Assembly: GCA_000237975.1 (NCBI GenBank)
Contig: CP003179.1
Location: forward strand, 682,001 to 746,000
Direction: 5' to 3'
DNA length: 64,000 bases
From: Sulfobacillus acidophilus DSM 10332
GTDB taxonomy: Bacteria; Bacillota; Sulfobacillia; Sulfobacillales; Sulfobacillaceae
A model generated the notes under the pieces. The model ran no database searches. It was not told the origin of the DNA and saw nothing but the letters and a program-made list of their open reading frames with translations. Below, piece after piece: positions 1-14,922 of this stretch (position 1 is the stretch's first letter; each line of letters opens with the position of its first letter). Both the position numbers and the translations under genes were made by a program.

Positions 1-74
1 ATTGTCAAGACAGATTTTTGACCCCTAAAGTGTGATACTGGCCTCCTTCCTTTGAGTGTCATCGAAACCATTAC

Positions 75-121
75 CCTCCGGTTTGGCGCGGGCTGTTGTC
101 AGCCCGTCGGCAAACCGGAGG
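75..121. repeat. Nested hairpin in the IS3 non-coding end
   Basis: CCTCCGGTTTG at 75-85 pairs perfectly with CAAACCGGAGG at 111-121. Inside it, GGGCTG (90-95) pairs with CAGCCC (100-105) around a TTGT loop. A small adjacent palindrome, AGCCC-GTA-GGGCT, lies at 125-137. The structure sits just downstream of orfB on the minus strand and has no T-run, so it is not a textbook terminator. It may block transcription or translation entering the element. Confidence 0.6.
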
Positions 122-150
122 CCCAGCCCGTAGGGCTGTCTAGGAGGGAT

Positions 151-990
151 TCAATCCCGGGAAACCCCACTCCCGGCGAGGGACGGGAGGGGCGTATACC
201 AGGCCGCGGGTGGCGTGTAGCCTAAGGATTGATGCAGCCGGTGATAGTTATAGAACGTAAAGTATCGGCTCAAGCCTGATCGGGCTTCCCGTGGTGAACG
301 GTAATCGTGTAGATAGACTTCTTCATATTTCACGCTGCGCCACAGCCGTTCCGTCAACACATTGTCCAACGCTCGCCCTTTACTGTCCATGCTGATTTGT
401 ACCTCCTTAGCCAACAACAAGGCCGTGTATTGGGGGCTGGTAAAATGGCTGCCTTGATCATGATTCCAAATGGTCGGAGTGGCGATGGACAACGCCCGCT
501 CCGCGGCCGTGAGCACAAAGGGCAGTTCCAACGTTTCGGAGAGCTCCCACGCCACGACAAACCGGGAATACCAATCAATAATGGCCACCAGGTAAAGCCA
601 ACCATGTACCAACCGGATATAGGTCACGTCAATCCCCCACACATGATTGGGGTACGCCGGCGTGACACCGTTCAATAAATACGGATACACCGGGTGCTGG
701 GGATGGCGAGTGCTGGTCTGGGGGCCCGGCGCGAGCCCCCAGATCCCCATCTCCCGCATATAGCGCTGCACGCGTTTGCGGTTCACGGTGTAACCCTCAC
801 GGTTCAACTGAGCCGTTATTCGCCGGGATCCGTAAAACGGTCGATCGGTGTAAATTTCATCGATGCGATGCTTCAGCGCGATCTCCTCGGCATCCGGCCC
901 GACGGGCCGGTAATAGAGGCTCGAGCGGTTGAGGCTTAACAACGCGGCTTGCGTCGTCAACGGCAGGGTATCCACTCCCCGATCCAGCAA
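151..990 (-). CDS. IS3-family transposase OrfB (DDE catalytic subunit)
   Basis: The 279-aa frame starts at a TTG. It has an N-terminal HTH_21-like region (YYRP, then FYGSRRITAQLNREGY) followed by an rve integrase core. Catalytic residues are visible as D in WGIDVTYI, D in NHDQGSHFTS and E in LTERLWRSVKYEEVY. The same frame is open upstream and reads KKNLASTLTRDERITLL back to the A10 run at 1028-1037, so the active product is probably an OrfAB fusion made by -1 slippage on that run. The TTG is therefore likely not the main start. The gene looks intact. Confidence 0.9.
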   Translation of the reverse strand: MLDRGVDTLPLTTQAALLSLNRSSLYYRPVGPDAEEIALKHRIDEIYTDRPFYGSRRITAQLNREGYTVNRKRVQRYMREMGIWGLAPGPQTSTRHPQHPVYPYLLNGVTPAYPNHVWGIDVTYIRLVHGWLYLVAIIDWYSRFVVAWELSETLELPFVLTAAERALSIATPTIWNHDQGSHFTSPQYTALLLAKEVQISMDSKGRALDNVLTERLWRSVKYEEVYLHDYRSPREARSGLSRYFTFYNYHRLHQSLGYTPPAAWYTPLPSLAGSGVSRD

Positions 991-1010
991 GGTGATCCGT
1001 TCATCGCGGG

Positions 1011-1304
1011 TCAGGGTCGAGGCCAGATTTTTTTTTTAAGCCACTCGACCTGGGTGGTCAGTTTCCCGATTTCCGCATACAGCTCGGTCAGCTGTTGTTG
1101 GTGGGCTTGGGCCTGTTGTTGGAGTACTTGGGACTCGGTAAACAACTGCGGAAAATTCTCGAGCGCCTGGCGCTTCCAGCGATGCAATTGACTGGGATGA
1201 ATGCCGTATTCGGCAGCAATCTGGCTAACGGTTTTTTCTTCCTTGAGCATTTCGAGCACCACTTGGCTCTTGAAGGTAGCGGAATACCGCTTTTGTTTCG
1301 TCAT
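1011..1304 (-). CDS. IS3-family transposase OrfA (HTH DNA-binding subunit)
   Basis: This 97-aa protein binds the element's ends. It has a HTH_Tnp_1 domain near residues 5-55 (YSATFKSQVVLEML, then VSQIAAEYGIHPSQLHRWK), followed by a leucine/glutamine-rich coiled coil of the type that mediates OrfA oligomerisation. Near its end the frame crosses ten consecutive A residues on the coding strand (complement of 1028-1037), the expected slippery site for switching into the orfB frame. The ATG at 1304 begins MTKQKRYS. Intact. Confidence 0.9.
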   Translation of the reverse strand: MTKQKRYSATFKSQVVLEMLKEEKTVSQIAAEYGIHPSQLHRWKRQALENFPQLFTESQVLQQQAQAHQQQLTELYAEIGKLTTQVEWLKKKIWPRP

Positions 1305-1360
1305 CGTGTGTCCAGTGTAACACTTAAGGGCCTCCCAAATTGTCTAGTTTTTGGGGACCA

Positions 1361-2005
1361 CTATAGTTATCCGGCACGACAATACGCGGCACACCCCCAA
1401 AAAAGGCAAAGGCGTGCTGATGCCCCTGAATCCAGGAGGCACGCGTTTCATCGGGGTGCAATTCGAGAAACGTATCATGGCTATACCCGAGCACAGCAAC
1501 AAACAGGTGACCCGAATGCACGTGCCCGGTCTCCGGATCCACAACGGGAACCGGGTCTCCCGCATAGTCGACAAACAGATATTCCCCCGGATGATAAACG
1601 CGATGAAAGACGACCTGCAGCGTCCGAACATATTCCCGGTAGTGGGTGGCGAATTGGGTATATTGGTACCCATCCGGATGCGCGACCTTATATTGCTGCC
1701 AGAGTTGCTCTAAGGTGACGGGCCGTTGGCGCAAGGCGCGATAAATCGCCCCCCAATCGGGTTCGGGACGCTGGCGTGGGGCGCCCGCTGGGTCGAGGAT
1801 ACAGCCATTCTTCCAACGCCGAATCCGTCAGGTTGTCCGGGAGCGGCCATTGCCCCCCGGCGGATTCAAAACGCCGGACAAGTTCCCGCACCGTCGGATG
1901 CGTACACCGCACCGTTCGGGCCACTGCGCGGGCCGGTAATCCGACTTCGTACACCAACCGTAAGATTTCACGAATTTGTCGCATGCTCAGCCTGCGTGTA
2001 CTCAA
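1361..2005 (-). pseudogene. IS21 transposase istA, frameshifted and truncated
   Basis: The 5' part (2005 down to about 1780, TTG start after AGGAGG near 2016-2021) encodes the N-terminal helix-turn-helix MRQIREILRLVYEVGL then CTHPTVRELVRRFES. Near 1775-1790 the frame shifts. The second frame continues RPEPDWGAIYRAL, VTLEQLWQQY and the integrase core (FVDYAGDPVPVVDP, HLFVAVLGYS, VPRIVVPDN) before it is cut by the IS3 insertion. FVDYAG supplies the first catalytic Asp and VPDN the second; the final Glu is lost. Two independent lesions mean this is not a functional gene. Confidence 0.85.
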
Positions 2006-2101
2006 TCATCGGGCCTCCTTGTCCGAGAATCTGAGGGCGACGCCCTCAGATCCCATTGTGCAAGGTGAGGCCCCGACGAGCATCCGGAGAATCCTGCAGG
2101 C

Positions 2102-2216
2102 GGTAAGAAATTTCCGTTTTGCGTGGTAAGACGTTTCCGTTTTCGGTGGTTAGGAATTTCCGACTGCCGTGGTAAGACGTTTCCGAACAGGGTGGTAAAT
2201 TATTTCCGAAATCTGC
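2102..2216. repeat. Five tandem 23-bp repeats (IS21-type terminus)
   Basis: Units begin at 2102, 2125, 2148, 2171 and 2194, an exact 23-bp period. The shared part is GGTAAGANNTTTCCG, with a variable 6-base stretch and a closing GT. Unit 3 starts GGTTAGG and unit 5 is the most diverged. They lie directly upstream of the istA pseudogene and match the expected position of transposase-binding repeats at an IS21 end. There are no unique spacers, so this is not CRISPR. Confidence 0.8.
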
Positions 2217-2331
2217 ACATTGATTGCCCCACGATAATCACGCTGCTAAACCGGTCGGAGCGTAGAAGGGGGTCGCAAAAAAATTTTTCTGGTTTCGGCG
2301 GCGGCATTTCTAAATGAAAGGGGGGATCTGC

Positions 2332-3318
2332 ATGAACTTTTGGCATTACGGCTTCCTGTCCTTTGGAATCGCCCTGACGCTGGCTGGCTGCGGTTCTGCT
2401 ATCCATCCCAGTGGTCCGTCGCCCCATTTCGGGCAGCCCCAATCTATGGCAGCGCCTCGGCCAATGCCGACCAGCCCGTCCCTCGTGTGGGAACCCGGCG
2501 TTGGTGTAACGCCCTGTGTGCGCCTCATCGATCAAGCCCTGACCGGCATTGATCTCAATGCGTATCCGATCGACAATCCGGCGATTCTCACCGCCTTGCG
2601 GCAGGCCGGCCAGCGAGGGGTCCCCATTCATGTCCTTCTCGCGCCCAATCCCTATGGCGATGCCGGGGCCGTTTCGACCGAACGGCAGGCCCTGGCTACT
2701 ATTCCGCATTGCCTCGTGCGGTCCGCACCGCCCCGGTTTGCCGCGGCGAATGCTTACGATCATGCGAAGTATCTCGTCATCAATCCCGGCACGCCGCAGG
2801 CGACGGCGGTCATTGGCACGGCCAACTTGACCGACAGCGCGTTCGACGGGGGCAACCTCGAAGCCGTCGCGGTCGCGACCGGCGCCCCGGCTCAAGCGGC
2901 TACGCAGGTCTTTCAGGCGGACTGGACCGATCGGCCATCCGGCCCCGGCCCCCGCCGGGCCCTTGTCTTATCACCGGGCGCGGCGCCAGCCATCACCTCG
3001 TTGTTGCGTGCGTCCGGGCCGATTCAGATGATGACCGAGGAGGTGGGCGACGATCCCGCTCTCTTGGCTATCATGGCGGCGGACGGCGCACGCTTGCAGC
3101 TGTTAGTCCCGCCGACAACCTCCACGACCACGACCGCCCGACTGGCCGCCCTGGCCGCCGCGGGTGTCCACATTCGGACGCTCTCGACGCCCGACATCCA
3201 TGCCAAAGTGATTGTCATGTCGACGACGGCCTTCCTCGGATCGCAAAATTTGTCGGCGGTGTCGCTTCAAGACAACCCCGAAATGGGCTTGTTGTTCACC
3301 GGGTCTGCGTGGGCATAA
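2332..3318 (+). CDS. Phospholipase D-like lipoprotein
   Basis: The predicted protein is an exported lipoprotein of the PLD phosphodiesterase superfamily. The ATG at 2332 is chosen over one at 2314 because AAAGGGGGG lies 6-7 bases upstream of it. Residues 1-20 form a signal peptide with lipobox LAGC (Cys20). Two HxK half-sites are visible: HAKYLVI with GTANLTD near 144-166 and HAKVIV with GSQNLS near 290-308, both lacking the classical trailing Asp of HKD. Substrate is unknown. The protein stops soon after the second motif (TGSAWA), about 90 residues short of its paralogue at 8637-9359, so its 3' end may have been lost in a rearrangement. Confidence 0.75.
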   Translation: MNFWHYGFLSFGIALTLAGCGSAIHPSGPSPHFGQPQSMAAPRPMPTSPSLVWEPGVGVTPCVRLIDQALTGIDLNAYPIDNPAILTALRQAGQRGVPIHVLLAPNPYGDAGAVSTERQALATIPHCLVRSAPPRFAAANAYDHAKYLVINPGTPQATAVIGTANLTDSAFDGGNLEAVAVATGAPAQAATQVFQADWTDRPSGPGPRRALVLSPGAAPAITSLLRASGPIQMMTEEVGDDPALLAIMAADGARLQLLVPPTTSTTTTARLAALAAAGVHIRTLSTPDIHAKVIVMSTTAFLGSQNLSAVSLQDNPEMGLLFTGSAWA

Positions 3319-3488
3319 CTCGCTGTGTGGTTTACTAACCCAACATACGGGTCATAATGTGTTGGATGCGAGAATACAGGCAATGTTAAAAATAAATTAG
3401 TTATTTTAGACAATATATAACAAATTTCACCAAATTCGATACGGTAGAATTTGCTTCGGACAAACTGAAAAGGAGGGAAGTACACATC

Positions 3489-3839
3489 ATGTTGATTGCT
3501 GAACGTGAAGATTTACAGATGGCTATAGATCCTGTTAGCGTGTATGAGTTCAATATGAAAGCGTATTTAGAGCCCGATTTTTTACACGATTTACAGGAAA
3601 AGCCATTTGATGCTTTGTCGGCGGTAAATGTGGCCCGCTTACCAGAACAAATCCGTTCAATCACCCCATTTACCCCAACCGATAAGGAGATGTTATGGCG
3701 TTTGCAACAACAAGTTCAGCGGCAGGGAGAATTGTCGTTAGTGAACGTGGAAAAAACCCTGCAGCCAGAAGGCTATGGCTTGCCAGCGATTGCGCTGTTA
3801 CTGGTGGTCGTGGCTCTATATGTTTGGGTTGTTGGTTAA
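3489..3839 (+). CDS. Candidate RiPP precursor peptide with hydrophobic C-terminal core
   Basis: The encoded protein has 116 residues and an ATG at 3489 behind AAAGGAGGG (about 3470). The N-terminal two thirds is charged; YLEPDFLHDLQEKPFDAL (26-43) loosely resembles nitrile-hydratase-type leader peptides (dPeFrxxLxxdPxxaL). The C-terminus from about 93 (PEGYGLPA, then a long L/V/A run ending YVWVVG) is strongly hydrophobic with Tyr96, Tyr111 and Trp113 and no Cys. No member of a named family was recognised. Its position just before a radical SAM gene and an ABC exporter suggests the modified substrate. It could instead be a small tail-anchored accessory protein. Base composition is clearly more AT-rich than the flanks. 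Confidence 0.55.
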   Translation: MLIAEREDLQMAIDPVSVYEFNMKAYLEPDFLHDLQEKPFDALSAVNVARLPEQIRSITPFTPTDKEMLWRLQQQVQRQGELSLVNVEKTLQPEGYGLPAIALLLVVVALYVWVVG

Positions 3840-3850
3840 CGACGAATCTA

Positions 3851-3884
3851 ACCGACTCCTGGGTTATATCCCCAGGGGTCGGTT
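3851..3884 (+). terminator. Attenuator-like hairpin between precursor and radical SAM genes
   Basis: ACCGACTCCTGGG (3851-3863) pairs with CCCAGGGGTCGGT (about 3871-3883) with one G-T pair and a short TTATAT-type loop. It is followed only by TTTGG, so termination would be partial. It sits between the small gene and the radical SAM gene and could keep precursor mRNA more abundant than enzyme mRNA. Confidence 0.6.
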
Positions 3885-3905
3885 TGGTAGAAAGGTTGGG
3901 ACATT

Positions 3906-4928
3906 ATGATAGCACGTCTTCTCTCCGTGTTTTTAGATTATAAATGCAATTATCAGTGCGCGCATTGTAGTGTAGAAAGCGGGCCAAGAATATCTAATCC
4001 AATGTCTCGGGCGGTGTTTGAAAAGTTATTGGAAGGTATTCCAGAACTGCCCAACCTAAATGTCGTGGTCTTTACGGGAGGAGAGGCAACATTACGTAAA
4101 CCGCTGTTATTGGAAGGTATCTCGCGTGTTCATCAAATGGGTAAACGAACAAGGCTAGTTACCAACGGATGGTGGGCAAAAAATCCTCAAAAAGCCCGAG
4201 CATTTGTCAAAGAATTGCGCGAGTCGGGGTTAGATGAAATCAATACGAGCTTCGATGATTTTCATGCACCATATACCACAATAGAGCACATTGGAAATCT
4301 CATTTTAGCGGCAATGGACCACGGGCTGACAATCGGGGTTGGTGTCATTGTTGGATCAAATGTTCATTACGATGTCGTTCGTGTTAAACAGGAACTAGCA
4401 GAATATTGCCATTTATCCTTAGAGGATTTAACAACGCATGTTGCCTTTTTAGAAGATTACGCGACGCCAACCGGACGAGGCGAATTGCTATCTATTGATG
4501 ATATTCCCGAGTTGGATAAAACCTATTTATCCTGCCCGGAGATTGTCAAAACCCTTTCTGTTCATCCTAATGGCGATGTGAAAGTATGTTGTGGGCACGC
4601 GATGTTTACCGCAAGAGATTTAACCGCAGGCAACTTATTAAATCATTCGTTGCCGACAATCGTGGAACGTGCCCAGCATAATATATTTTATTGGTGGCTT
4701 CATATGCATGGGCCTCGAAAAATTTTGCACGACATCGGTGTAAATAATCATTATACCAGTATCTGCCATGCATGTAATGATTTGTTAGTTAATCATCTGG
4801 ATGAAGCCGTGGATTATCTTAAAACGCACCAAGAGTACATTTGGGTCAATCAAGTTCTTTTAAGTGATGCGTTCAAACGACAACTGACAGTTATTCAAAA
4901 GTCCCGTCCTGATTTATTATCGTCATAG
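3906..4928 (+). CDS. Radical SAM peptide-modifying enzyme
   Basis: This 340-aa protein carries the CX3CX2C cluster motif at Cys14, Cys18 and Cys21, the GGE SAM-binding motif at 58-60 and the (V)TNGWWA strand near 85-91. A C-terminal cysteine set (Cys210, Cys228/229, Cys287, Cys290 in CHAC) suggests a SPASM/twitch-like auxiliary iron-sulfur cluster. Overall pattern (FTGGEATL, VTNGWWAK, SFDDFH) recalls peptide-modifying radical SAM enzymes such as those of yyd-type epipeptide loci, a resemblance judged by eye. The likely substrate is the adjacent 116-aa product. Chemistry (epimerisation, crosslinking or other) cannot be read from sequence. AT-rich like the small gene, suggesting transfer as a unit. 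Confidence 0.8.
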   Translation: MIARLLSVFLDYKCNYQCAHCSVESGPRISNPMSRAVFEKLLEGIPELPNLNVVVFTGGEATLRKPLLLEGISRVHQMGKRTRLVTNGWWAKNPQKARAFVKELRESGLDEINTSFDDFHAPYTTIEHIGNLILAAMDHGLTIGVGVIVGSNVHYDVVRVKQELAEYCHLSLEDLTTHVAFLEDYATPTGRGELLSIDDIPELDKTYLSCPEIVKTLSVHPNGDVKVCCGHAMFTARDLTAGNLLNHSLPTIVERAQHNIFYWWLHMHGPRKILHDIGVNNHYTSICHACNDLLVNHLDEAVDYLKTHQEYIWVNQVLLSDAFKRQLTVIQKSRPDLLSS

Positions 4929-4980
4929 TTCGAAGAACGATATAATGCAATTGACTTATTGAGGGGATAGCTGGATATCA

Positions 4981-5916
4981 GTGAGCGGTACAGAGAGGAG
5001 AAAAGAATTGCTGGAGTTTCGCCACGTGGATGCCGGGTATGGGAGGCATCGGGTTCTTGTCGATGTGACCATGCATCTCGATGCTGGCTTTCATATTGTG
5101 TTGGGCCCTAATGGCGCGGGAAAAACTACGTTATTCCGGGTGGGGGCCGGCATTTTACCTCCGCAGGCGGGGACGGTTGCCATTGAGGGACGCGATCTTT
5201 TTCAGAATCCGGCGGAAAAACGGCACGTGGCATATTTGTCTCACCGCCCGGCGCTCGCCAGCGACTTGACCGTGCGGGACAACTTGGAGTTTTGGGGGCG
5301 CGTGTTAGGGCTATCGGCTCCAGAACGCCGGGCGGCTGTGGCCGATGTCGCCGAAGCGCTCGACCTGCACGACCTTTTAACCCAAAAAGCGGGGACGTTA
5401 AGCCGGGGGCAAAGCCAGCGAGTTGCCATCGCCCGGGCGCTTTTGGGTCACCCCCGCGTCTTTTTTTTGGATGAGCCGACTACCGGGCTGGATCCGGACG
5501 CAGGGAGGGCGCTTCGGCAACGCCTGCAACAGCTGGGTCGGGACATGGCATTGACGATTATTTTTTCCACGCACAATTTGGCTGAAGCCCAGGAATTGGC
5601 ACAAGATGTTGTGGTGTTACAACAGGGGCGCCTTATCGCCCGAGGCGATCCGAATGAACTCGCGCAAGCTCTGGCATCGGCGCGAAAAATTGGTTTTCGC
5701 CTGGCCGGAGATCCTCGACCAGTGTTTCAGCAATTGGGCTATCAGATAGCCTCTCAAGAAAATGACCAATGGGTGATTGAGGTGCAGTCGGACGACGAAG
5801 TCGGGGCGATTGTGAAGGCGTTGGTGGCCAGCGGGGTAACTGTGTTAAGCGCCGCTCCGTTGGAAAATTCTCTCGAACACATCTATTTTTCCATACGGAG
5901 GAAGGAACATGACTAA
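4981..5916 (+). CDS. ABC transporter ATP-binding protein (putative peptide exporter)
   Basis: The 311-aa ATPase has Walker A GPNGAGKTT (42-50), signature LSRGQSQRVAIARAL, Walker B VFFLDEPTTGLD and a switch His in STHN. A roughly 90-residue C-terminal extension is typical of ABC-2 exporter ATPases. Annotated start is GTG 4981; a TTG at 5008 preceded by AGAGAGGAG (about 4992-5000) is an attractive alternative, giving MLEFRHVD. Its stop overlaps the permease start by 8 bp, so the two form one complex. Position after the radical SAM gene suggests export of the modified peptide or self-immunity. Composition is nearer the genome average than the two preceding genes. Confidence 0.85.
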   Translation: MSGTERRKELLEFRHVDAGYGRHRVLVDVTMHLDAGFHIVLGPNGAGKTTLFRVGAGILPPQAGTVAIEGRDLFQNPAEKRHVAYLSHRPALASDLTVRDNLEFWGRVLGLSAPERRAAVADVAEALDLHDLLTQKAGTLSRGQSQRVAIARALLGHPRVFFLDEPTTGLDPDAGRALRQRLQQLGRDMALTIIFSTHNLAEAQELAQDVVVLQQGRLIARGDPNELAQALASARKIGFRLAGDPRPVFQQLGYQIASQENDQWVIEVQSDDEVGAIVKALVASGVTVLSAAPLENSLEHIYFSIRRKEHD

Positions 5917-6715
5917 TTCGGCGTGGCATTTAGCAGGGGTCTTGCTCTGGCGGCAATGGCGGGAACAAAGCCGGCGGCTAGTATGGATGCCAGTTGGGTT
6001 TGCCCTGGTCCTGGGTGCCATCACGGTGTTGGCCTTTTCGGTCCCCGGCGTATTGACCCCGCTTACGCGGCGCGCCCTCGATACGGCGATGACTTTATAT
6101 TTTCATCGGATTCACGGCGCGGTGGCGCTCGGTCTCGCGTTTCTCGTCTTTCAAAGTCCTTATTTTATCGCTCTCTTCGCCTCGTTAACTGGAAGCCAAA
6201 TTGCCCAAGCCAGTATTGGAGGAGAATGGGTCCGCGGTGGGTTTGAGCTCCTCCTTAGCGCACCGTACCGGCCGCAAGTGTTATATGTGGCCTTTTTGGT
6301 GAGCGACCTTCTGTTGACGATTTGGGGATTCGTGTGGCTAGCTGCGGTGAGCCTTGGGGTGTCTTTGGGGGTGTTAGTCGCGATGGGCGTCCACCTGGTG
6401 AGTTTGCCGCGGCAATATTTTGTGATGGCCTTAGTATTGCCGTTACCGATTGCGCTGTTCGCCAATTTGATTGCACTGACGTTAACGTTCATGTTTCCCA
6501 AGTTGGCGCAGATACGCGCAGGAGGCACGGCTAATGTTATTCAAACCTTGGCAATTTTGCCAGCGGTTTTGCTCATTTTTGTGGTCACGCTTCACCCGGC
6601 CATTCACCCTATGCGGGTTGCTGAATATGCGATCGCAGCCGGAATTATTGGAGCCCTCGGGCTCGTCACCCTTTTGCGGCGATGGTTTAACGTGGAAACC
6701 TTGTTAGAAACCTAA
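5909..6715 (+). CDS. ABC-2-type transporter permease
   Basis: This 268-aa integral membrane protein has about six hydrophobic segments (near residues 22-45, 68-95, 125-150, 160-180, 188-215 and 220-255). It partners the ATPase encoded immediately upstream, with which its ATG overlaps by 8 bp; the GGAGG ribosome binding site lies inside the ATPase gene. The sequence is not specific enough to name the cargo. It resembles bacteriocin/antibiotic-type or CcmB-like permeases in size and topology, but no cytochrome maturation genes are nearby. Confidence 0.78.
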   Translation: MTNSAWHLAGVLLWRQWREQSRRLVWMPVGFALVLGAITVLAFSVPGVLTPLTRRALDTAMTLYFHRIHGAVALGLAFLVFQSPYFIALFASLTGSQIAQASIGGEWVRGGFELLLSAPYRPQVLYVAFLVSDLLLTIWGFVWLAAVSLGVSLGVLVAMGVHLVSLPRQYFVMALVLPLPIALFANLIALTLTFMFPKLAQIRAGGTANVIQTLAILPAVLLIFVVTLHPAIHPMRVAEYAIAAGIIGALGLVTLLRRWFNVETLLET

Positions 6716-7149
6716 ACAACCACGCCTGATACGAACGGATTGGTCCTTTTTGATTAACACGTTCTCTTGGGATTTACTCATCGTTTGTGACCAATTAATT
6801 CTACCGGTGCTAGTGAGGAATAAAGTGGACCTTATTTTCAAGAGGGATTTTTAACCCTCAAATTATGGCTATTTTTTTCCTGTGGGCATCATCGGGGGCT
6901 TTACTATCCTCTTTGGTGAAGGCCTGTTGGTCGTTAAACAAGGTTCAGCCCGAAGGGCCGTTTGAGGAGCAATAAGAATCTCAGGACATATCACCGATAG
7001 TACGGAGACGGCAAGAGTTTGAGATATCATTTTATTCCGTCGATTCGTTACGTAATTCTGACTACCTTACATGGAGCTAGATCAGGTCCTGAAGTTGGTG
7101 TGGGTATGATGGCAATCACGCCCCGGGGTGCGGCGCAGGGGCGTCTTCC
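6716..7149. other. Intergenic stretch, no gene seen
   Basis: No convincing reading frame is present in these 434 bases between the ABC permease and the next insertion sequence. A hairpin GAGGG-atttttaa-CCCTC (about 6841-6858) followed by a T-run near 6870 could terminate transcription from the ABC genes. The rest looks like eroded mobile-element sequence, but I could not assign it. Confidence 0.5.
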
Positions 7150-8532
7150 CTCAAAAATAAAAGTACTTGAACGGGGTTTCGTTGCCTCAAAATAAAAGGT
7201 CTTTGAAAATCGTATCATAGAGGGACCTCGTGCGGGGTTTCGAGGGGCATGGGGTCCCACAACCGGTTTTGGAGCCGTAGCAAATCGCGTCGAATCGCGG
7301 CGGGATTGAGCGACGTGTACTGCGCCGTTAAGACCGCTTTCTGTGCCGGAGACACAAGCGTATCCGGCAGCGCCAGGACCCGTTGGTAGGGAGTTTGGGC
7401 CTGATCATAGCGGCGGTAGGTGCGGGCTCCCCGACGCTCTTTGGCCACGGTCTTTTGTAACGGTTGAAAGAAATGGGTATAGAGGCGGAGGGTGGCATAG
7501 AGGTCGTTCAGCCATTGCACCTGTTCGGCCCCCTCATAGCGTAGATAGCCGACGAAGCGCCGCACCACCGACCAGTTTTTTTGCTCCACATAACAGCCGT
7601 CGTTTTTGTGATAGGCTCGGGCCCGCGTAAACATGATCGGGTGGCTATCGCACCAGGTCAGGAGATGGTGGTTGATGAATTCGCTTCCGTTATCCGAGTC
7701 GATCCCGCGAATCGGGAAGGGAAAGCGCGAGAGCTGGGTATCCAAGGCCTCGATCACCCATTTTCGGGCTTTATTCGGCAAGGCCACGGTTTCCGTCCAC
7801 CCGGTTAAGATATCGACCAAATCCAGGGTCCAGGCAAATTCGCCACGGGCTGCGCCGCCATCGTGGGAGACGAGATCGATTTCGAGAAATCCGGGATGGG
7901 TCGCATCATCCCATTCCGCCCACGTCCGGACCGGGATTTGCTGTTTGAGGAGGGGGCCGGGCTTGGTGCCGCTGCGCCCTTTGACCTCCAACCGCCGCCG
8001 TTCGGCGGCGAGAAAGCGGTCGATTGACGCGGCACTCATCTGCACGAGCTGATCGCGCACGGTAGGCTCTAAATGCCGTTCGCCGTGGGCTTCGAGCCGT
8101 TCCACCAACTCCGGTAAAAAGGGTTGTAACCGTTTGCCGGTGGGGAAGTTGAGAATGGCCCAACAGGTTGTCAAGGCGGCCTTGGCCGCCGCGCCATACA
8201 CCGGTTTACGTCCCCGGCCGGGGCGAACGGCGTGGGGTGTCGCCGACTCCGTGATGGCCGCCGCCCGGAGGGCGCGCGCCGCATAGGACCGGTTGTAACC
8301 ACACAGCGTTTGGAGTTGTTCGATCAGTCGGGCGCGCTGGCCTTTCGTCGCCTGGCGATACTGGGCCGCCAATTCACGAATCACCGCACGACGTTCGGGT
8401 AAGGATAACGGCATCAAGGCATCCTCCTGCCACGCATGATGCCGAGAATTTCGGCTTGCCATCACTGCACTCCTTTTCGAGTACATTTTTTTGTGAGGCA
8501 ACGAAGGGATTTCAAGTACATTTTTTGTGAGT
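7150..8532 (-). mobile_element. Insertion sequence with doubled terminal repeats and an integrase-core transposase
   Basis: Both ends carry two tandem copies of a roughly 22-bp motif, arranged as inverted repeats. On the left, CTCAAAAATAAAAGTACTTGAA (7150-7171) and CTCAAAATAAAAGGTCTTTG (about 7186-7205) flank TTCGTTGC. On the right, read inward, two CTCACAAAAAATGTACTTG-like copies flank the same TTCGTTGC block (8478-8532). The single gene between them reads leftward. No clear target duplication was found. It lies between the AT-rich island and a truncated lipoprotein gene. Confidence 0.82.
7215..8462 (-). CDS. DDE transposase with integrase core (rve)
   Basis: Using ATG 8462 (AAGGAG about 8 bases upstream) gives 415 aa; a longer form from 8501 would start inside the terminal repeat. 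The N-terminus (LPERRAVIRELAAQYRQATK, then LCGYNRSYAARALR) is a DNA-binding helical region. The catalytic core shows D in GFLEIDLVSHDGG, D in IDSDNGSEFIN and E in YVEQKNWSVVRRFVGY. The C-terminus is basic. The family is one of the IS481/ISNCY-like integrase-core transposases; I did not fix the group. The frame is intact, so the element may be active. Confidence 0.85.
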   Translation of the reverse strand: MASRNSRHHAWQEDALMPLSLPERRAVIRELAAQYRQATKGQRARLIEQLQTLCGYNRSYAARALRAAAITESATPHAVRPGRGRKPVYGAAAKAALTTCWAILNFPTGKRLQPFLPELVERLEAHGERHLEPTVRDQLVQMSAASIDRFLAAERRRLEVKGRSGTKPGPLLKQQIPVRTWAEWDDATHPGFLEIDLVSHDGGAARGEFAWTLDLVDILTGWTETVALPNKARKWVIEALDTQLSRFPFPIRGIDSDNGSEFINHHLLTWCDSHPIMFTRARAYHKNDGCYVEQKNWSVVRRFVGYLRYEGAEQVQWLNDLYATLRLYTHFFQPLQKTVAKERRGARTYRRYDQAQTPYQRVLALPDTLVSPAQKAVLTAQYTSLNPAAIRRDLLRLQNRLWDPMPLETPHEVPL

Positions 8533-8636
8533 CAAATCGGGGGTCGGCGGGCGAACCGTCGAACAGCTTAGGACTTCGCGGGTGAGCCGTGTGATGTCGC
8601 GAGGCGAAACGACTTGGTTTTTACGTAGGCCGATGG
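8533..8636. other. Short spacer between IS and truncated lipoprotein paralogue
   Basis: No gene or clear signal is seen. It separates the right end of the insertion sequence from the point at 8637 where similarity to the upstream PLD-like lipoprotein gene begins abruptly, so it marks an old rearrangement joint. Confidence 0.4.
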
Positions 8637-9359
8637 GAAGCCGCCGCAGTCGTCACCGGCGCCCCAGCCCAAGTGGCCGTTCAGGTCTTTCAGGCGGACT
8701 AGTCGGATTGACTGGCCGGTCCTAGCCCAAGGCGGTCTCTGGTCTTGTCGACCGGAGCGACGCAGACTCTCGCGGCGCTGTTCCTCTCGTCCGGGCCAAT
8801 TAAAATGATAACCGAGGAAGTCGGCGACGATCCCGCCCTTTTGGCCCTCATGGCGGCCGCTGGCGCACGCTTGCGGCTGTTGGTGCCGACACCGACCTCC
8901 GCGGCTACGACTGCCCGACTCGCCGCCTTAGCCGCTGCGGGGGTCCACATCCGGACGCTGGCCTCGCCCTATGTGCATGCGAAAATCATTGTGACGCCGA
9001 CAACGGCCTTTCTAGTCTCCCAGAATCTGTCCTCCGTGTCGCTCCAAGACAACGAAACGGGCCTCATGGTCACCGGATCCGCTCGGATGCAACTCGCCAC
9101 GTGGTTTCAACAGTGGTGGGCCCGGGCGACGCCGTGGACATCGGCCGATACGCCGTCCGCGGAACCCTCACCGCCCACAGCTTCTCATCGACCGTGGCTT
9201 CCGGACGGCGCGTCCATGGCGACCGTCCGCCAACTTTGGGGGCCGCCCGCGCGCACGTATCCCACGATCTATCACGGCCAATCCCAAATCGCTTGGGTGT
9301 ATCCGACAGCAACCGTCTATTTCGTTGGCCAGCGGCTCGTGGCGGTGGTTGACCGTTAA
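8637..9359 (+). pseudogene. 5'-truncated PLD-like lipoprotein paralogue
   Basis: From 8637 the sequence follows the gene at 2332-3318 in frame (EAAAVVTGAPAQ against EAVAVATGAPAQ). The signal peptide and the first HxK motif are absent, and in-frame stops occur at 8700 (TAG, Trp in the paralogue) and 8709 (TGA). Beyond them the frame is open from 8745, retaining EEVGDDPALLA, the second motif HAKIIV and SQNLSSVSLQDN. Unlike the upstream copy it continues into a C-terminal region (VRQLWGPPARTYPTIY to VGQRLVAVV) that resembles a small SmpA/BamE-like fold by eye. Probably non-functional, though a short internal product from 8745 is conceivable. Confidence 0.75.
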
Positions 9360-9432
9360 AATTTAGCTCATCCGCCGGACGATCTGTTTGGACCTCTTTG
9401 TTTTTGACAACGCCATTACGCATTAAGAGGAG

Positions 9433-9969
9433 ATGACGATAGCCTTGATTCGGGCCTCCTCCCCAGAGCAGACAGCGTCCGCGATTCTCAAATCGTTAGG
9501 GTGTGGCCAACCGATTCCTGTCCCCTTGGGAGACCTTTGCACGAAACTGGGCATTGACGTTCTTCAAGCTCGCTTCAAAGACGATAACATTTCGGGCATG
9601 ATTCGTCGAATGGACGACGGACACGCGATTATCTACGTCAATCGGAACCAGAGTCCGGCGCGGCAGCGATTTACCACCGCGCATGAGTTGGGTCACTTTT
9701 TGTTACATCTCCGGAGTACCGACAAAGAAGGGCTCATTGAACGGGGTGATATTCAAGAGTGATATCGACGAGACAAGGATTCTTCACGGGAAGAGCGCGA
9801 GGCGAATCGCTTTGCGACCGCATTGCTCATGCCTGATTTTGTGATCCGTGAGTTGGGGGGCAGATACCCTGTGGATCTTTTCGCTCAGTTTTTGGCCGTC
9901 TCACCAGAAATTTTGGCAATCCGATTAAAAAATTTACGAAGGGAGTGCGAGAATGAGCGGTTTCGCTGA
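9433..9969 (+). pseudogene. ImmA/IrrE-type metallopeptidase with one in-frame TGA
   Basis: Residues 1-109 include the zinc-binding HELGH motif (TTAHELGHFLLHL) of the ImmA/IrrE (COG2856) family, preceded by the usual N-terminal helical region. A TGA at 9760-9762 interrupts the frame after DIQE. The same frame continues for 68 codons with the conserved EANRFATALLMP motif and a C-terminal SPEILAIRLKN helix, to a TGA at 9967. A single Trp-to-stop change (TGG to TGA) explains the break. These proteases cleave HTH repressors that control mobile elements; a degraded HTH-like gene follows immediately. AGAGGAG abuts the ATG, so the start may be the TTG at 9445. Confidence 0.8.
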
Positions 9970-10192
9970 CTGGATTCGCTGGGAGCGAGCGGCCCGCGGC
10001 TGGAGCGTCACCGAATTGTTGCCCTTGTAGAGGCTTGGGGCGTCAATGCTGCCGATGTGGTGGGCCTTGCGCTACCGATGGGGCGAAACAGATGGTAACG
10101 CCATTGTGGAAACGCTTGTGCGCCGATGGCCTGCCCTCACAACGGCGCAGAAAGCGGCTATTGATGCATTGTTGACGTCATGGCCGTCATGA
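9953..10192 (+). pseudogene. Small HTH-like partner gene with one in-frame TAG
   Basis: The frame opens with MSGFADWIRWERAARGWSVTEL, resembling the first helices of an XRE-type domain (RxxRGWSVxEL). It hits TAG at 10028-10030, then stays open in the same frame for a further 53 codons (ALRYRWGE, LTTAQKAAIDALL) to TGA at 10190-10192. The ATG at 9953 overlaps the ImmA-like gene by 17 bp, so the two formed a coupled pair. The stop-interrupted state matches that of its neighbour and suggests the module is decaying. The HTH assignment is tentative. Confidence 0.5.
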
Positions 10193-10249
10193 TGTCGCGT
10201 TACCTCACGTTTTCTTAGGGGTCTGGTTCATTCGTACTCTCGCACCCGT

Positions 10250-10270
10250 TCCCGCGGCGCTGCCGCGGGA
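10250..10270. repeat. GC-rich hairpin upstream of phage-type gene
   Basis: TCCCGCGGC (10250-10258) pairs perfectly with GCCGCGGGA (10262-10270) around GCT. It lies about 15 bases before the ribosome binding site of the gene starting at 10296. Comparable hairpins precede the next genes, at 10955-10984, 11812-11824, 12120-12148 (weak) and 12848-12865. Confidence 0.6.
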
Positions 10271-10295
10271 GGACATGGGGGCGGAGGTGAAGTGA

Positions 10296-10955
10296 ATGGG
10301 TCATTATCGTGTCTTGGTGATTTTACCGTCGGAGGCGGAGGAAGACGACGCCGAAGGCTATGTCGAAGACCTGCTGGCCCCTTATGACGAAAATCTGACG
10401 GTGGATCCCTATTGGGAAGATTGTGGGTGCCGCCAACAACGGGCCTGGCTCCAACTGGCCGATGCGACGGCTCAAGCGCATGGCTACGCCCACTGGGAGG
10501 CTTGGCGCGAAGCCATGCGGACGGAAGCAGCGAACCAACCCTCTGACGTCCTCTACCTCGACCACGTCCCGGCGTTTCGATCGATTTTTCAAATGCTCGA
10601 CATTCAAGCGGCTCAGCAGGCCCCTGAAACGCCCGCCGATCCGAATTGCCCGACCTGTCACGGTCGCGGCCGGTACCGCACGATCTACAATCCCGGCGCC
10701 CGCTGGGATTGGTGGGTGATTGGCGGACGGTGGGATGACCCCGCAGGCAATATTCGTCGTCTCCGCGAGTGGCCGGCCGACGCCCCGCCGATCGCCGTCG
10801 TGACACCCGACGGCACGTGGCACGAACAGGCCGAAGTCGGTTGGTTTGGATCCACCCATGCCGTCATGACGGATGCGGAGTGGCAGCAACGGTGGACGGA
10901 CTGGCGGGCGCTCTATGGCGATTACTGGGCGGTCTCCGTCGACTGCCATATTTAG
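10296..10955 (+). CDS. Phage-type hypothetical protein with CxxC zinc-knuckle-like motif
   Basis: This 219-aa acidic protein starts at ATG 10296 behind GGAGGTGAAGTG. It begins MGHYRVLVILP, then has YDENLTVDPY, a single CPTCHGRGRY motif near residues 117-126, and the string NPGARWDWWVIGGRW near 132-146. The combination of DENLxVxPY, a CxxCxGxG motif and KWDWYxIGGRW-like text is familiar from hypothetical proteins of phages and mobile elements; no function is established to my knowledge. It is first of the early-type cluster. Confidence 0.7.
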   Translation: MGHYRVLVILPSEAEEDDAEGYVEDLLAPYDENLTVDPYWEDCGCRQQRAWLQLADATAQAHGYAHWEAWREAMRTEAANQPSDVLYLDHVPAFRSIFQMLDIQAAQQAPETPADPNCPTCHGRGRYRTIYNPGARWDWWVIGGRWDDPAGNIRRLREWPADAPPIAVVTPDGTWHEQAEVGWFGSTHAVMTDAEWQQRWTDWRALYGDYWAVSVDCHI

Positions 10956-10984
10956 CCCGCCCGGCTCCTGCCGGGCCATCGGGC
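10955..10984. repeat. Bulged hairpin between genes
   Basis: CCCGGC (10960-10965) pairs with GCCGGG (10970-10975) around TCCT. The stem extends through GCCCG (10955-10959) with CGGGC (10980-10984), leaving a CCAT bulge. It lies between the stop of the upstream gene and the AGGAGG site of the gene at 11016. Confidence 0.6.
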
Positions 10985-11015
10985 ATCGCCAATCCATCAT
11001 CAGGAGGTCGAAATC

Positions 11016-11831
11016 ATGTCCACTCGTGGATTTGTCGGCATCGGTACGGCAGAGCAATGGACTGCGCGGTATAATCACGCCGATTCGTATCCCACCGGGC
11101 TAGGCCCGGACGTCTGGGCCACCGCGCAACGCTTCTGGCAAGAAGACCATCACTTAGACGGTTTCGCCCAACGCCTGTTGAGTTTCACCGATTGGCGGCA
11201 AATGGCGACCGATGGCGTGTGCGAATATTGCGGCCAACGGACGGGGCAACCGCACTCGATTAGCGGCACGCTATTCGTGCATGCGGAGACGCCAGCCCAG
11301 ACGCTTGAGGACTATCGGGCCGAATTGCAACGCCGCGGATACAAAAAGCGGGCGGCCCAAAAAGCCGCCGCGGAGGAATGGCCCATCATCCAAAATATCC
11401 GCCGTACCGGCTATCCGGATCCTGAGGCCCGCTATCACCCACACGATAGCACCGATCCGGCGGCGATCGACATCACGCCCCAGAATGTGGACTGGCTGTT
11501 CATGGAATGGGGCTATATTGTCGATCCCGATCGTCATGGTCTGCACGTGTTCGTCGGGATGATTCCGACCCCCGTGACCTACACGGTCGAAATTATTCGG
11601 GCCAATGGCACCTGGGAATTATGGACCGACAAAGAACGGTTCACGGGTGCTCTGGTCGGCACCTATGACCTGACCGGGCCCGAGCCTGATTGGGAGGCCG
11701 TCGAACAAGCCGGCTATGCCGTGCGGGACCAGCTCGAAGACGCGTTTGCCGCCAATCCGGATCATCCCCTACTGGCCGCCGTCCGGCGGTTGCCGCCCGT
11801 CGAGGTGTGGGACCGGCGGCCGGTATCGTAA
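11016..11831 (+). CDS. Hypothetical protein of the MSTRGFVGI type (phage/mobile element associated)
   Basis: This 271-aa protein starts at ATG 11016 behind AGGAGG. Its N-terminus (MSTRGFVGIG, then YNHADSYPTGLG) matches a widespread uncharacterised family beginning MGTRGxIG..YNHxDSYPxGLG. A CEYCGQ pair lies near residue 69-72, and a helical Lys/Ala-rich segment (KKRAAQKAAAEEW) near 108-122. The second half is tryptophan-rich with beta character (LFMEWGYIVDP, GLHVFVGMI). No catalytic motif was recognised. It is likely co-transcribed with its neighbours. Confidence 0.7.
   Translation: MSTRGFVGIGTAEQWTARYNHADSYPTGLGPDVWATAQRFWQEDHHLDGFAQRLLSFTDWRQMATDGVCEYCGQRTGQPHSISGTLFVHAETPAQTLEDYRAELQRRGYKKRAAQKAAAEEWPIIQNIRRTGYPDPEARYHPHDSTDPAAIDITPQNVDWLFMEWGYIVDPDRHGLHVFVGMIPTPVTYTVEIIRANGTWELWTDKERFTGALVGTYDLTGPEPDWEAVEQAGYAVRDQLEDAFAANPDHPLLAAVRRLPPVEVWDRRPVS
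11812..11824. repeat. Short hairpin at gene end
   Basis: ACCGG-CGG-CCGGT overlaps the last codons of the gene at 11016-11831. It precedes the AAAGGAGG site (about 11845-11852) of the next small gene. Confidence 0.45.
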
Positions 11832-11864
11832 GCGGTTTCGTTCAAAAGGAGGCACCCCCACCCC

Positions 11865-12119
11865 ATGGTTCGCGTGACGATTCCCCCGTCATTCCATCAG
11901 GCCCTCGATCCCTATTGCCGTCGGCATCCGCGCCGGGTCTGGGCGGACCCGGTTCAACACCACCTGTGGCTGGAGGTCGACTTTCGCGCGCGGACATCGT
12001 GGTACGACGTCCTGAAATGGATCCCACTGGCGTTAAGTGACGCGTTCCCGGCGTATCACGGATGGACATGGTCCTTTGGACAGCCCCCCGCGATTCACGG
12101 AACGTTCCGTCTCCATTAG
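11865..12119 (+). CDS. Small hypothetical protein
   Basis: The product is an 84-aa basic, tryptophan-rich protein with ATG 11865 behind AAAAGGAGGCACCCC. No family was recognised. It lies between two phage-type genes in the same direction with short gaps, and codon usage looks like that of its neighbours, which supports it being a real gene of the mobile element. There is no signal peptide or membrane segment. Confidence 0.6.
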   Translation: MVRVTIPPSFHQALDPYCRRHPRRVWADPVQHHLWLEVDFRARTSWYDVLKWIPLALSDAFPAYHGWTWSFGQPPAIHGTFRLH

Positions 12120-12177
12120 GTGGCGCCCTTCCCGTAACCCTTCGCCACACGTGTAGCGTTTTAAGGAGGAATTCTTC

Positions 12178-12615
12178 ATGTTTCGTTTCGCTCGTGTGAC
12201 ATCCGCACCGGATGCCCGGTTGCCGCACCGCGCCACCGCTCAATCGGCGGGATACGACATTTTCCCTTATATTCCCGAACCGTTGACGATTCAACCCGGT
12301 GCCATGGCGCTCATTCGCACGGGGATTAAAGCCTACATGCCCCCGGGCTGGGTGCTGTTGCTGATGGTCCGTTCGAGCGTCGGGATTAAACGTCGACTCG
12401 TCATTCCGAACAGCGTTGGGGTGATTGATGGCGATTATGCCGATAATCCCGACAACGAGGGCGAAATATTCCTGGCGCTGTGGAACATCGGCGATCAGCC
12501 ACAAACCGTTCATCCGACCGACCGGCTCGCGCAAGGGATCTTTCTGCCGTATGGCGTCGTGGCGGACGATGCCGCGGACTCTGTCCGCGGCGGGGGCATC
12601 GGCAGCACCGGATAA
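12178..12615 (+). CDS. dut: dUTP diphosphatase (deoxyuridine 5'-triphosphate nucleotidohydrolase)
   Basis: The enzyme hydrolyses dUTP to dUMP and pyrophosphate, keeping uracil out of DNA. At 145 aa it has the normal length for a trimeric dUTPase. Conserved motifs are visible: AGYDI (motif 1), RSSVGIK (motif 2), NSVGVIDGDYADN (motif 3, catalytic Asp), a motif-4 region around DRLAQGIFLPY, and C-terminal RGGGIGSTG (motif 5). The strong site TTAAGGAGGAATTCTTC precedes ATG 12178. Placement with a nuclease and a recombination ATPase suggests a phage-style nucleotide and replication module, not the host copy. Confidence 0.92.
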   Translation: MFRFARVTSAPDARLPHRATAQSAGYDIFPYIPEPLTIQPGAMALIRTGIKAYMPPGWVLLLMVRSSVGIKRRLVIPNSVGVIDGDYADNPDNEGEIFLALWNIGDQPQTVHPTDRLAQGIFLPYGVVADDAADSVRGGGIGSTG

Positions 12616-12894
12616 GGCGGGGAAGGAACGACGTGTGTCCGTCTAATTAGATAAAGCTCCTAATTGTCGGGAAGGCATGCCATAAAAGCGTGGCGCTTAC
12701 ACAACAGATGGATTTCACTGGTCCCTATGAGGGGTTGTAACCACTACTATGTGGCCCGCGTCCGCTCGTGTTTGGATTTATGGCGGCCCTACCCGATGGG
12801 CGGAGACCCCGGACACCTTCACCACCTCGCTCCGGCTTCCATCCCATGCCGCCCCCCGGGGCGGCTGTTGTCTATTGCGAAGAGGAGGAATCGT
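12616..12894. other. Leader region of the Cas4-like nuclease gene
   Basis: The 279 bases between dut and the nuclease gene hold no convincing gene. A frame open from 12664 joins the nuclease but lacks a ribosome binding site and has atypical residues. A perfect hairpin, GCCGCCCC (12848-12855) with GGGGCGGC (12858-12865), stands about 18 bases before AGGAGG at 12883-12888. Confidence 0.55.
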
Positions 12895-13977
12895 ATGGAC
12901 GCACCTGCGCCGTTATCGGAGCGGCCCTTGTTGAGCACCCAGGCGCTCTGGCATCAGCATCTGCAACAGCGCTTGATGGAACCGCCGCCGTTTGATCCGA
13001 CCGAAATTCGCCTGTCCGAGGCGGGCCAGTGTCCTCGCCGGCAAACCTTGCGGGCCCTGGGGTATGCGGCCGCGTTGCCGACGCCGCGGGAACTCGCCAT
13101 CTTTGAAACCGGACATTGGGTCGAAGATCGCCTCGCAGCGCTTTGGGAAGCGCGCCATCCCGGTCAGGTGAATCGTCAAGTGACCGTAACGTCACCCTTC
13201 GGCACCGGGCATATCGACCTCTATATCGAGCCGTTAAACCACATTGTGGAATGTAAAACGACGACGGAGAAACGGCGGACCGAACTCCCGCTCAAAAGCC
13301 ACGTCGACCAAGTCACGCTGTATCTCCATTATTGGGGGAATGCCCGCGGGGCGACGGCGGAAATCGCGTACTACATCAAGGAAACCGGCAACATTCTTGC
13401 ATTTCCGGTGACTTATGACGCGGCCCGCGCCCGGGAGCTCATCGTCGGGCTAATGGAGGTTCAGTATGCGATTCAGCTCACTCGCGAGCCCTTGCCGATT
13501 CCCGACGACTACCAAGCCACGCAGTATCCCTGCGCGTGGTATACGGCGGACGGCCTCGCCCGGTGCCCCTATTGGGAGCACTGCTGGGGCAGCTCCGTGA
13601 CCCCGATGCCCGACAAAAAACTCGGCGTGGTCGCCGTCGCGCCCGCCTTAGCCGGCGATGTCGACGAATATGCGACGATCCGGCAAAAGCAGCAAGCCCT
13701 GAAAGGCCAACTCGACATCTTAGCGGTGCGTCGCGAGCAATTGGAAGCCGGCTTTCGCACCTTGTTGGATGAGCGCCGGGCGCAGGCTCTCCGGGCCGGA
13801 GACCTGACCATCAAACGCACGCCGATTGCCGGCCGCACGACGGTCGACCTCAAAGCCGCCATTGCGGATGGCGTCGTCACCGAAGCGCAATTGCAACCCT
13901 ACACCGTGCAACATGAGGGCTATGATCGTTGGACGGTGCAACAGGCGAAACCCCGTCAACACAAACAGGAGGGATAA
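12895..13977 (+). CDS. PD-(D/E)XK nuclease, Cas4/RecB-like
   Basis: Start is ATG 12895, six bases after AGGAGG, giving 360 aa. The nuclease core shows a conserved Glu-containing FETGHWVEDRL helix, Asp in GTGHIDLY, ECK in IVECKT and Gln in HVDQVTLYLHY, fitting the Cas4/AddB-like branch. Cysteines at QCPRR and at PCAWY, ARCPYWEHC suggest a 4Fe-4S cluster. The C-terminal 120 residues form a helical region with likely coiled coil. The gene ends 6 bp before the Sak4-like ATPase gene, so the pair probably cooperate in phage-type recombination. No CRISPR array is nearby. Confidence 0.85.
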   Translation: MDAPAPLSERPLLSTQALWHQHLQQRLMEPPPFDPTEIRLSEAGQCPRRQTLRALGYAAALPTPRELAIFETGHWVEDRLAALWEARHPGQVNRQVTVTSPFGTGHIDLYIEPLNHIVECKTTTEKRRTELPLKSHVDQVTLYLHYWGNARGATAEIAYYIKETGNILAFPVTYDAARARELIVGLMEVQYAIQLTREPLPIPDDYQATQYPCAWYTADGLARCPYWEHCWGSSVTPMPDKKLGVVAVAPALAGDVDEYATIRQKQQALKGQLDILAVRREQLEAGFRTLLDERRAQALRAGDLTIKRTPIAGRTTVDLKAAIADGVVTEAQLQPYTVQHEGYDRWTVQQAKPRQHKQEG

Positions 13978-13983
13978 ATTCTG

Positions 13984-14922
13984 ATGGCTGCGACGATTAC
14001 CTTTGCAAAAGCCGAAAAGTCTCAAGCGAAAGCCCGCATCGGGCTGATTGGCCCGGCTGGGTCCGGCAAAACCTATACCGCGCTGCGGATGGCGTCGGCG
14101 ATGGGCCAGAAAATCGCCGTGATTGACACGGAGCACGGCTCCGCGTCCAAGTACGCCGACGAGTTCACCTTTGATGTCGCGACTTTGCCGGATTTCGATC
14201 CCCGGACCTATATGGCCGCGATTCAGGCGGCGGCCGAGTCGGGCTACGAGGTGTTGGTGATTGACTCGGCCAGTCACGAGTGGTATGCCTGTCTCGAAAT
14301 GGTGGACCGCCAGGCGCCCCGTTTCGGCGGGAACGCTTGGGCTGCGTGGAGCCAAGTGACGCCGTTGCACCGGAAATTTGTCGACACGCTCCTCGATGCG
14401 CCACTCCATGTCATTGCCACGTTTCGGGCCAAGACGGAATACGCTCAAGTGACCGGAGCCAATGGCAAGACCGAAATTCAAAAAGTGGGCGTCGGGGCTG
14501 TGACCCGCGATGGCATGGAGTATGAGCTGGACATCATTGGAGAGCTCGACCTGTCGCATGTGCTGACCATCACCAAGACCCGATACCGCGACATCGCGAA
14601 CAAACAATTTGAACAACCGGGCGAAGATCTGGCGAAGCTGATCTTGCAGTGGCTCCAAGCGGGCGCTCCGACCGAGACGGTCGAGCGGTTAACCACCGAG
14701 CAGGGCAAGCAGCTGTGGGCCTTTGCCCAGCAGCATCAACTGGATGTGCCGGCATTGCTGACGCTGGTCAATAGCCTGCTGGGAACAGCTCACACGTCGT
14801 TGCGGGATCTGAGCCGCGCCGAAGCTGACCGGCTGTTGGCTGATATTGCAAGCGGCATCTTAACGGTTCCGTCGGCGGAACCGATCCCGCCAACAGACGG
14901 GAGTACTGCCAAAGCGCTTTAG
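13984..14922 (+). CDS. Sak4-like phage recombination ATPase
   Basis: This 312-aa P-loop ATPase has Walker A GPAGSGKT (23-30), an acidic DTEHGSASKYAD motif, and a Walker B strand VLVIDSASHEW near 85-95. It matches the AAA_24/RecA-fold proteins of phages, a group that includes Sak4 single-strand-annealing partners. The C-terminal 90 residues are helical and variable. Pairing with a Cas4-like nuclease and dUTPase supports a role in element replication or recombination. The start at ATG 13984 lies behind a weak GGAGGGATAAATTCTG site. Confidence 0.8.
   Translation: MAATITFAKAEKSQAKARIGLIGPAGSGKTYTALRMASAMGQKIAVIDTEHGSASKYADEFTFDVATLPDFDPRTYMAAIQAAAESGYEVLVIDSASHEWYACLEMVDRQAPRFGGNAWAAWSQVTPLHRKFVDTLLDAPLHVIATFRAKTEYAQVTGANGKTEIQKVGVGAVTRDGMEYELDIIGELDLSHVLTITKTRYRDIANKQFEQPGEDLAKLILQWLQAGAPTETVERLTTEQGKQLWAFAQQHQLDVPALLTLVNSLLGTAHTSLRDLSRAEADRLLADIASGILTVPSAEPIPPTDGSTAKAL

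Follow-up and report, generated by a model that had tools for sequence, protein, structure and literature searches.

Epipeptides are the closest described counterparts of the locus examined here. An epipeptide carries two epimerised residues (Val36 and Ile44) and permeabilises membranes (PMC8326336, PMC7026026). The radical S-adenosylmethionine (SAM) enzyme of the pathway, EpeE, abstracts C-alpha hydrogens from a Val and an Ile, and its Cys223 is the proposed hydrogen donor (PMC8326336). In Bacillus subtilis, the gap between epeX and epeE holds a terminator hairpin involved in regulation of the epimerase, and the ATP-binding cassette (ABC) pair EpeAB is described as a self-protection system (PMC12871923), with an effect that was minor in one study (PMC7026026). 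When B. subtilis lacks the dedicated protease, the product is not wholly abolished (PMC10885120). Here, we describe a four-gene cassette of the same general kind at positions 3489-6715 of a 64,000-nucleotide stretch (the window) of the genome of Sulfobacillus acidophilus DSM 10332.

The cassette is a locus for a ribosomally synthesised and post-translationally modified peptide (RiPP) of the epimerase kind, related to the epipeptides. Like yydFGHIJ/epeXEPAB, it combines a precursor gene, a hairpin in the following gap, a radical SAM enzyme of the YydG/EpeE type, and an ABC ATPase with its permease. We consider it likely that the EpeE-like enzyme gives rise to a hydrophobic peptide containing D-residues, most likely a membrane-permeabilising one, and that the ABC pair exports this peptide or protects its producer. 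The locus nevertheless departs from the epipeptides in its precursor, its protease and its family score. EpeX is a short precursor with a 32-residue leader and a 17-residue core, whereas the precursor in the window is unrelated, 116 amino acids long, and has a long leader and an all-hydrophobic C-terminal core. The cassette also lacks the M50 peptidase EpeP, its enzyme is distant and scores below the family cut-off (TIGR04078, 300 bits), and its relatives carry tandem precursors. An earlier account made from the DNA letters and their translations (the sequence-only reading) had proposed a peptide pathway related to, yet distinct from, yydFGHIJ. This proposal is supported.

Homology identifies the radical SAM protein (340 amino acids; 3906-4928, forward strand, as are all genes of the cassette) as a diverged relative of YydG/EpeE peptide epimerases. 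In NCBIfam, its best match is TIGR04078, the YydG epimerase (E 1.9e-35, nearly whole length), and the next family follows at 2e-12. PoyD-type epimerases are absent among the 25 best NCBIfam matches listed, where YydG is far ahead. The closest solved structures are those of EpeE (8ai6, 8ai1 and 8ai3; E about 1e-20), with residues 4-310 aligned. A CX3CX2C motif and five C-terminal cysteines had been noticed earlier, and we find them at C14-X3-C18-X2-C21 and at C210, C228, C229, C287 and C290. Cys229 aligns with EpeE Cys223 via a CC pair, by our own reading of an alignment whose numbering offset was taken from the position where the 8ai6 and 8ai1 constructs differ. The window enzyme thus has the active-site cysteines of EpeE, including the equivalent of its donor. 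Seven cysteines (C14, C18, C21, C210, C228, C287 and C290) are invariant in 42/42 relatives, a set that includes a Macrococcus protein annotated as YydG (locus L028), and C229 is kept in 41 of the 42, with Ser in the other. In a maximum-likelihood tree, the window protein groups with Thermogemmatispora and Halocatena proteins (99/97), and this group is joined next by a Clostridia/Caldicoprobacter pair (97/95). The window protein falls within a single family that excludes the four outgroup radical SAM proteins; the Macrococcus YydG has a very long branch and its exact position is unsure. Family matches, EpeE structures and tree agree in grouping the protein with the peptide epimerase YydG and not with non-peptide enzymes; a grouping with the latter was one of the outcomes that the sequence-only reading had named as fatal to a RiPP interpretation.

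The precursor has a leader and a core that evolve differently. The gene (3489-3839; 116 amino acids) is identified from its open reading frame and by alignment with Thermogemmatispora precursors. As previously noticed, its product has a charged, leader-like N-terminal part and a hydrophobic, Cys-free C-terminus, AIALLLVVVALYVWVVG (grand average of hydropathy 2.8). The leader region (residues 1-99; 3489-3785) ends in a conserved GYGLP, which marks a putative boundary in the alignment, and the variation among paralogues and orthologues in relatives points to residues 100-116 (3786-3836) as the core. Alignment gives 27-37% identity to the four tandem precursors of Thermogemmatispora aurantia, and all five proteins share P15, YEFN, P29, L32, Q36-E37-x-P39 and the GYGLP before the core. 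A profile of these precursors, of which the window precursor is itself a member, recovers it at 2.6e-50. The T. aurantia cores are LLVSPTIIAVIMITLLW (P1), AVAVLVLLLVVVVCICVA (P2), AVAALALAVAVAVYLWVYLWG (P3) and AVAVVCVAVTVVTCMSLFIFLWLTGA (P4); cores are 17-26 residues long and rich in Val, Ala and Leu, with Tyr or Trp in some.

Paralogues within one genome have leaders of 79-96% identity and cores of only 6-38% identity, while orthologues across species have leaders of 90-99% and cores of 94-100% identity. Changes in core codons are nearly all silent; leader codons show both silent and non-silent changes. A conserved leader beside a core that varies among paralogues and is conserved among orthologues is a hallmark of RiPPs. 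The pattern fits up to four distinct, sequence-selected peptides that would share one enzyme and a common leader. In the Thermogemmatispora loci (L112, L118, L119 and L120), leaders look homogenised within each genome, the four cores are distinct, and copy number differs by genome. Leaders within a genome are about as alike as orthologous leaders, as if they were evolving in concert in each genome.

The precursor matches nothing in NCBIfam or Pfam at E up to 1, and a search for precursor homologues across 40 relatives gave chance-level matches only (E 0.06-1). A nitrile-hydratase-type leader had been suggested; neither the window precursor nor Thermogemmatispora P3 matches TIGR03793 at E up to 1, and this leader type is therefore rejected for the window precursor. 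Weak matches are confined to distant relatives, among them the archaeal one (13.2 bits, E 0.06, below the cut-off). Sactipeptide and lanthipeptide chemistry is likewise rejected, because the window core contains no Cys, Ser or Thr. The sequence-only reading had already argued from the lack of Cys against sactipeptide or thioether chemistry, and that argument stands.

The same cassette occurs in other phyla. Precursor(s), radical SAM gene, ABC ATPase and ABC-2 permease follow one another in the same order in four species of Thermogemmatispora, a genus of Chloroflexota, and in one archaeon of the Thermoplasmata. T. aurantia (L029) has its four tandem precursors followed by the genes for a radical SAM protein (50% identical), an ABC ATPase and a permease, and three further genomes of the same class carry the locus with varying precursor copy number. 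The Thermoplasmata bin (L033) encodes a 115-residue precursor ending NRLAVAVVIAVAVAAA, a radical SAM gene whose frame is broken in that bin, an ATPase and an overlapping permease. Because gene order and homologous proteins recur in Chloroflexota and in an archaeon, the arrangement goes beyond chance. These relatives were found by scanning genome contigs with an alignment as query; a single-protein query found nothing.

Precursor and enzyme also occur together. Searches with the precursor profile and with the radical SAM protein hit the same 4 of 47 genomes of the Thermogemmatispora class and no others (4/4 against 0/43, p = 6e-6), the four genomes belonging to one genus. Across the phylum to which S. 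acidophilus belongs (299 genomes), the profile matches only the genome of S. acidophilus itself. The sequence-only reading had made its case depend on whether homologues of the 116-residue protein stand apart from radical SAM genes, and in all positive genomes they lie alongside one. Two further genomes of the phylum have a radical SAM gene of 38% identity near a different hydrophobic precursor candidate of 72-76 residues.

The ABC pair belongs to the unit, by the homology of its permease. The ATPase (4981-5916; PF00005, 3.5e-29) has adjacent counterparts in L029 and L033, and the permease (268 amino acids; 5909-6715) is 42% identical to that of Thermogemmatispora and 25% identical to the archaeal one. 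Its single match in the archaeal genome (2.8e-13) lies inside the archaeal cassette. Together, these values are why we count the pair as part of the cassette. An unrelated bystander pair, with GC content near that of the genome, was considered and rejected, since the pair is kept in three phyla. The permease fold is ABC-2-like (NosY, CcmB and PmtCD), with VIA-align Z values of 10-13.7 (best 13.7) that lie near the helical-bundle background, and Foldseek gave no match with E < 0.001; the assignment therefore draws on the fold ranking backed by homology to the permeases of other cassettes. As in the epipeptide operon, an ABC ATPase-permease pair, recognised here by position and fold, closes the operon. 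It may export the peptide or protect the producer, either direction of transport being compatible with its fold.

A wider set of YydG-like loci has hydrophobic candidate precursors as well. We asked whether a neighbouring open reading frame of up to 400 amino acids contains 14 or more consecutive uncharged residues of which 62% or more are Ala, Val, Ile or Asn. Such a frame accompanies 28/44 YydG-like loci, 0/24 outgroup radical SAM loci and 2/28 arbitrary window genes, some of which may themselves be cassette neighbours. Cores from this set include NALALANANAVANANALANANIMANVN (Klebsiella), NVNTNLNVSTNANFNYNANYNYN (Thermus) and AACSVAAACVAVVAVAVYNTAGAAVNVVAAVAV (Halocatena). A literature search found no published description of YydG-like loci with such hydrophobic precursors, which is no proof of absence. 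The 44 loci (L018-L073) come from many phyla; some have SdpI-like or methyltransferase neighbours, and the leaders near the YydG-like genes belong to several types that are not related to one another; NRLLFSLLSN is the pattern of one of them. An acidobacterial locus (L051, 7154-7828) has a perfect NANANANA run of about 30 residues, of the (NA)n type, beside its YydG-like gene. T. aurantia has a second YydG-like gene (L046, 5089-7041) with a 238-residue candidate precursor and the core NIAIAANAGGIVNAGAVVNAVVYANAAVATLAVVVLAVV. S. acidophilus also has a second YydG-like locus (L121, G000:C1:2102500-2113500; 2309-7033, minus strand), where a 231-residue protein with the VNVN/Val-rich core RVNVNLGYDVNVYVGYEVGAVVVVVAAIALVIPV stands with a radical SAM gene, small membrane proteins and an ABC exporter. 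On a Halocatena plasmid (L018, 7202-10450), the radical SAM gene is followed not by an ABC pair but by a gene for a 1082-residue TPR/STAND-like protein.

The epipeptide pathway suggests how the window cassette would work. The leader would end at GYGLP, leaving the last 17 residues as the core. C14, C18 and C21 are predicted to hold the radical SAM cluster, C210, C228, C287 and C290 the auxiliary cluster, and C229 would be the hydrogen donor. The enzyme would take the C-alpha hydrogen from chosen hydrophobic core residues and return one on the opposite face, yielding D-residues. A protease encoded outside the cassette would then free the core near GYGLP, and the ABC-2 pair would export the peptide or protect its producer. 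The product would most likely insert into and permeabilise the membranes of competitors or siblings.

Several points weigh against this proposal. No product has been seen, and the cassette has no protease gene. The TIGR04078 score (122.8 bits; 122.2 in a repeat) is well below the cut-off of 300, so that equivalent function is not assured. The AlphaFold model of the precursor has a low predicted local distance difference test score (pLDDT 61) and shows the core as helical, as would be expected of a plain membrane anchor. Finally, the rule behind the 28/44 count was chosen post hoc, after the sequences were seen.

The enzyme of the same RiPP cassette might form a different bond, for example a Tyr/Trp cross-link, or alter Val side chains, instead of introducing D-residues. 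SPASM-type enzymes perform many reactions, conversion of Val to cyclopropylglycine is possible (PMC9062424), and the window core contains both Tyr and Trp. We regard this as unlikely, given that YydG outranks every other family by more than 20 orders of magnitude in E-value, that the CC motif with its donor Cys is kept, and that cores of several relatives have neither Tyr nor Trp (LAVAVVIAVAVAAA in L033 and AVAVLVLLLVVVVCICVA in L029). Epimerisation and Tyr/Trp cross-linking had earlier been put forward side by side; the YydG family and the donor Cys clearly favour the former and leave the latter less favoured. We find it very improbable that the hydrophobic end serves as a plain C-terminal anchor in the membrane, with some other substrate for the radical SAM enzyme. 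The 17-22 uncharged residues would suffice for an anchor, and the low-confidence model shows a helix, yet paralogue cores that diverge to 6-38% beside leaders of 79-96%, and are then fixed across species, are unexpected for anchors. Co-occurrence and tandem precursors instead favour enzyme substrates.

Low GC content, flanking transposases and absence in related genomes make it probable that the locus, or its first half at least, has been acquired. GC content is 45.0% for the precursor gene, 41.9% for the radical SAM gene, 56.9% for the ATPase and 54.3% for the permease, against 57.2% for the window. Transposase genes lie at 1011-1304 and 7215-8501, and the radical SAM gene is found in 0/24 other genomes of the same family. 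The same facts could describe a silent, recently acquired remnant of a mobile island with no product, an explanation to which we give scarcely any weight in view of four intact frames, a strong ribosome-binding site and intact catalytic residues. The change in GC within the cassette is abrupt, from 42-45% in the first two genes to 54-57% in the ABC genes. An origin of the genes in phages was rejected, since PHROGs gave matches to generic radical SAM proteins only and viral_contigs held no relative. A search of plasmids gave no precursor homologues.

Gramicidin A is a 15-residue Val/Ala/Leu peptide with a Trp-rich C-terminal half. The window core and the Thermogemmatispora P3 core are similar to it in make-up and length, although gramicidin A is the product of a non-ribosomal peptide synthetase (NRPS) and the window core is gene-encoded. 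A bolder and doubtful possibility is a ribosomal gramicidin, in which every second residue of the 17-26-residue core would be epimerised to give D/L beta-helix ion channels; the wider YydG-like loci, whose Val/Ala/Asn cores include runs such as NANANA and VNVN, would then be a second, independent and widespread polytheonamide-like route in bacteria and archaea. In polytheonamide, an alternating pattern results in a channel (PMC8183687). A period-2 test of side chains in the near-family cores was not significant (combined p = 0.21) and lends no support to D/L alternation; gramicidin A also fails it (p = 0.37). The wider set gave a Fisher combined p of 4e-6 in what is a weak test, as one in four ordinary permease transmembrane segments reached p = 0.01. 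The polytheonamide-type proteusins (PoyA/PoyD) share with the window cassette a ribosomal, hydrophobic Val/Ala(/Asn)-rich core and a radical SAM epimerase, and VNVN or NANANA runs occur in the cassette's wider relatives. The window enzyme, in contrast, belongs to the two-cluster EpeE type, and enzymes of this type are not significantly homologous to the epimerases of proteusins (PMC8326336); the cassette has no NHLP leader match, methyltransferase or C1A protease.

The S. acidophilus DSM 10332 assembly comprises 3,557,831 bases in two contigs; the genome of this type strain (NAL) is described as one chromosome and one plasmid (PMC3558970). The window corresponds to G000:C1:682001-746000. The four open reading frames, of 116 and 340 codons and an overlapping ATPase/permease pair, stand as earlier called. 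Sequence inspection places a strong ribosome-binding site, AAGGAGGG, at 3470-3477, ahead of the precursor gene. The ATPase and permease frames overlap by 8 bases, and the true ATPase start may be TTG 5008, which has a better ribosome-binding site upstream. Folding predicts a GC-rich, 13-bp hairpin at 3851-3883, between the precursor and radical SAM genes. This stretch (-31.2 kcal/mol, z = -4.7) is more stable than any of 200 shuffles (0/200), and the attenuator-like hairpin of the sequence-only reading is thus real; its T run is short and the evidence falls short of a strong terminator. No known RNA family was found in window positions 1-14000. We also confirm that no M50 or other peptidase gene lies within 3489-6715. 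A gene for a PLD-like lipoprotein lies upstream (2314-3318), with a degenerate, partial copy of its C-terminal half, containing stops, downstream (8625-9359); the cassette and one transposase sit between these related copies.

Few systems are known that place D-residues in ribosomal peptides. This locus and its relatives suggest that EpeE-type epimerases serve a far wider set of hydrophobic precursors than the epipeptides, in hosts that include acidophiles, thermophiles and halophilic archaea. The cassette itself is compact, with precursor, one enzyme and one transporter. If D/L alternation were to hold, these peptides would be a gene-encoded counterpart of a textbook NRPS product type, with as many as four of them occurring naturally in one genome.

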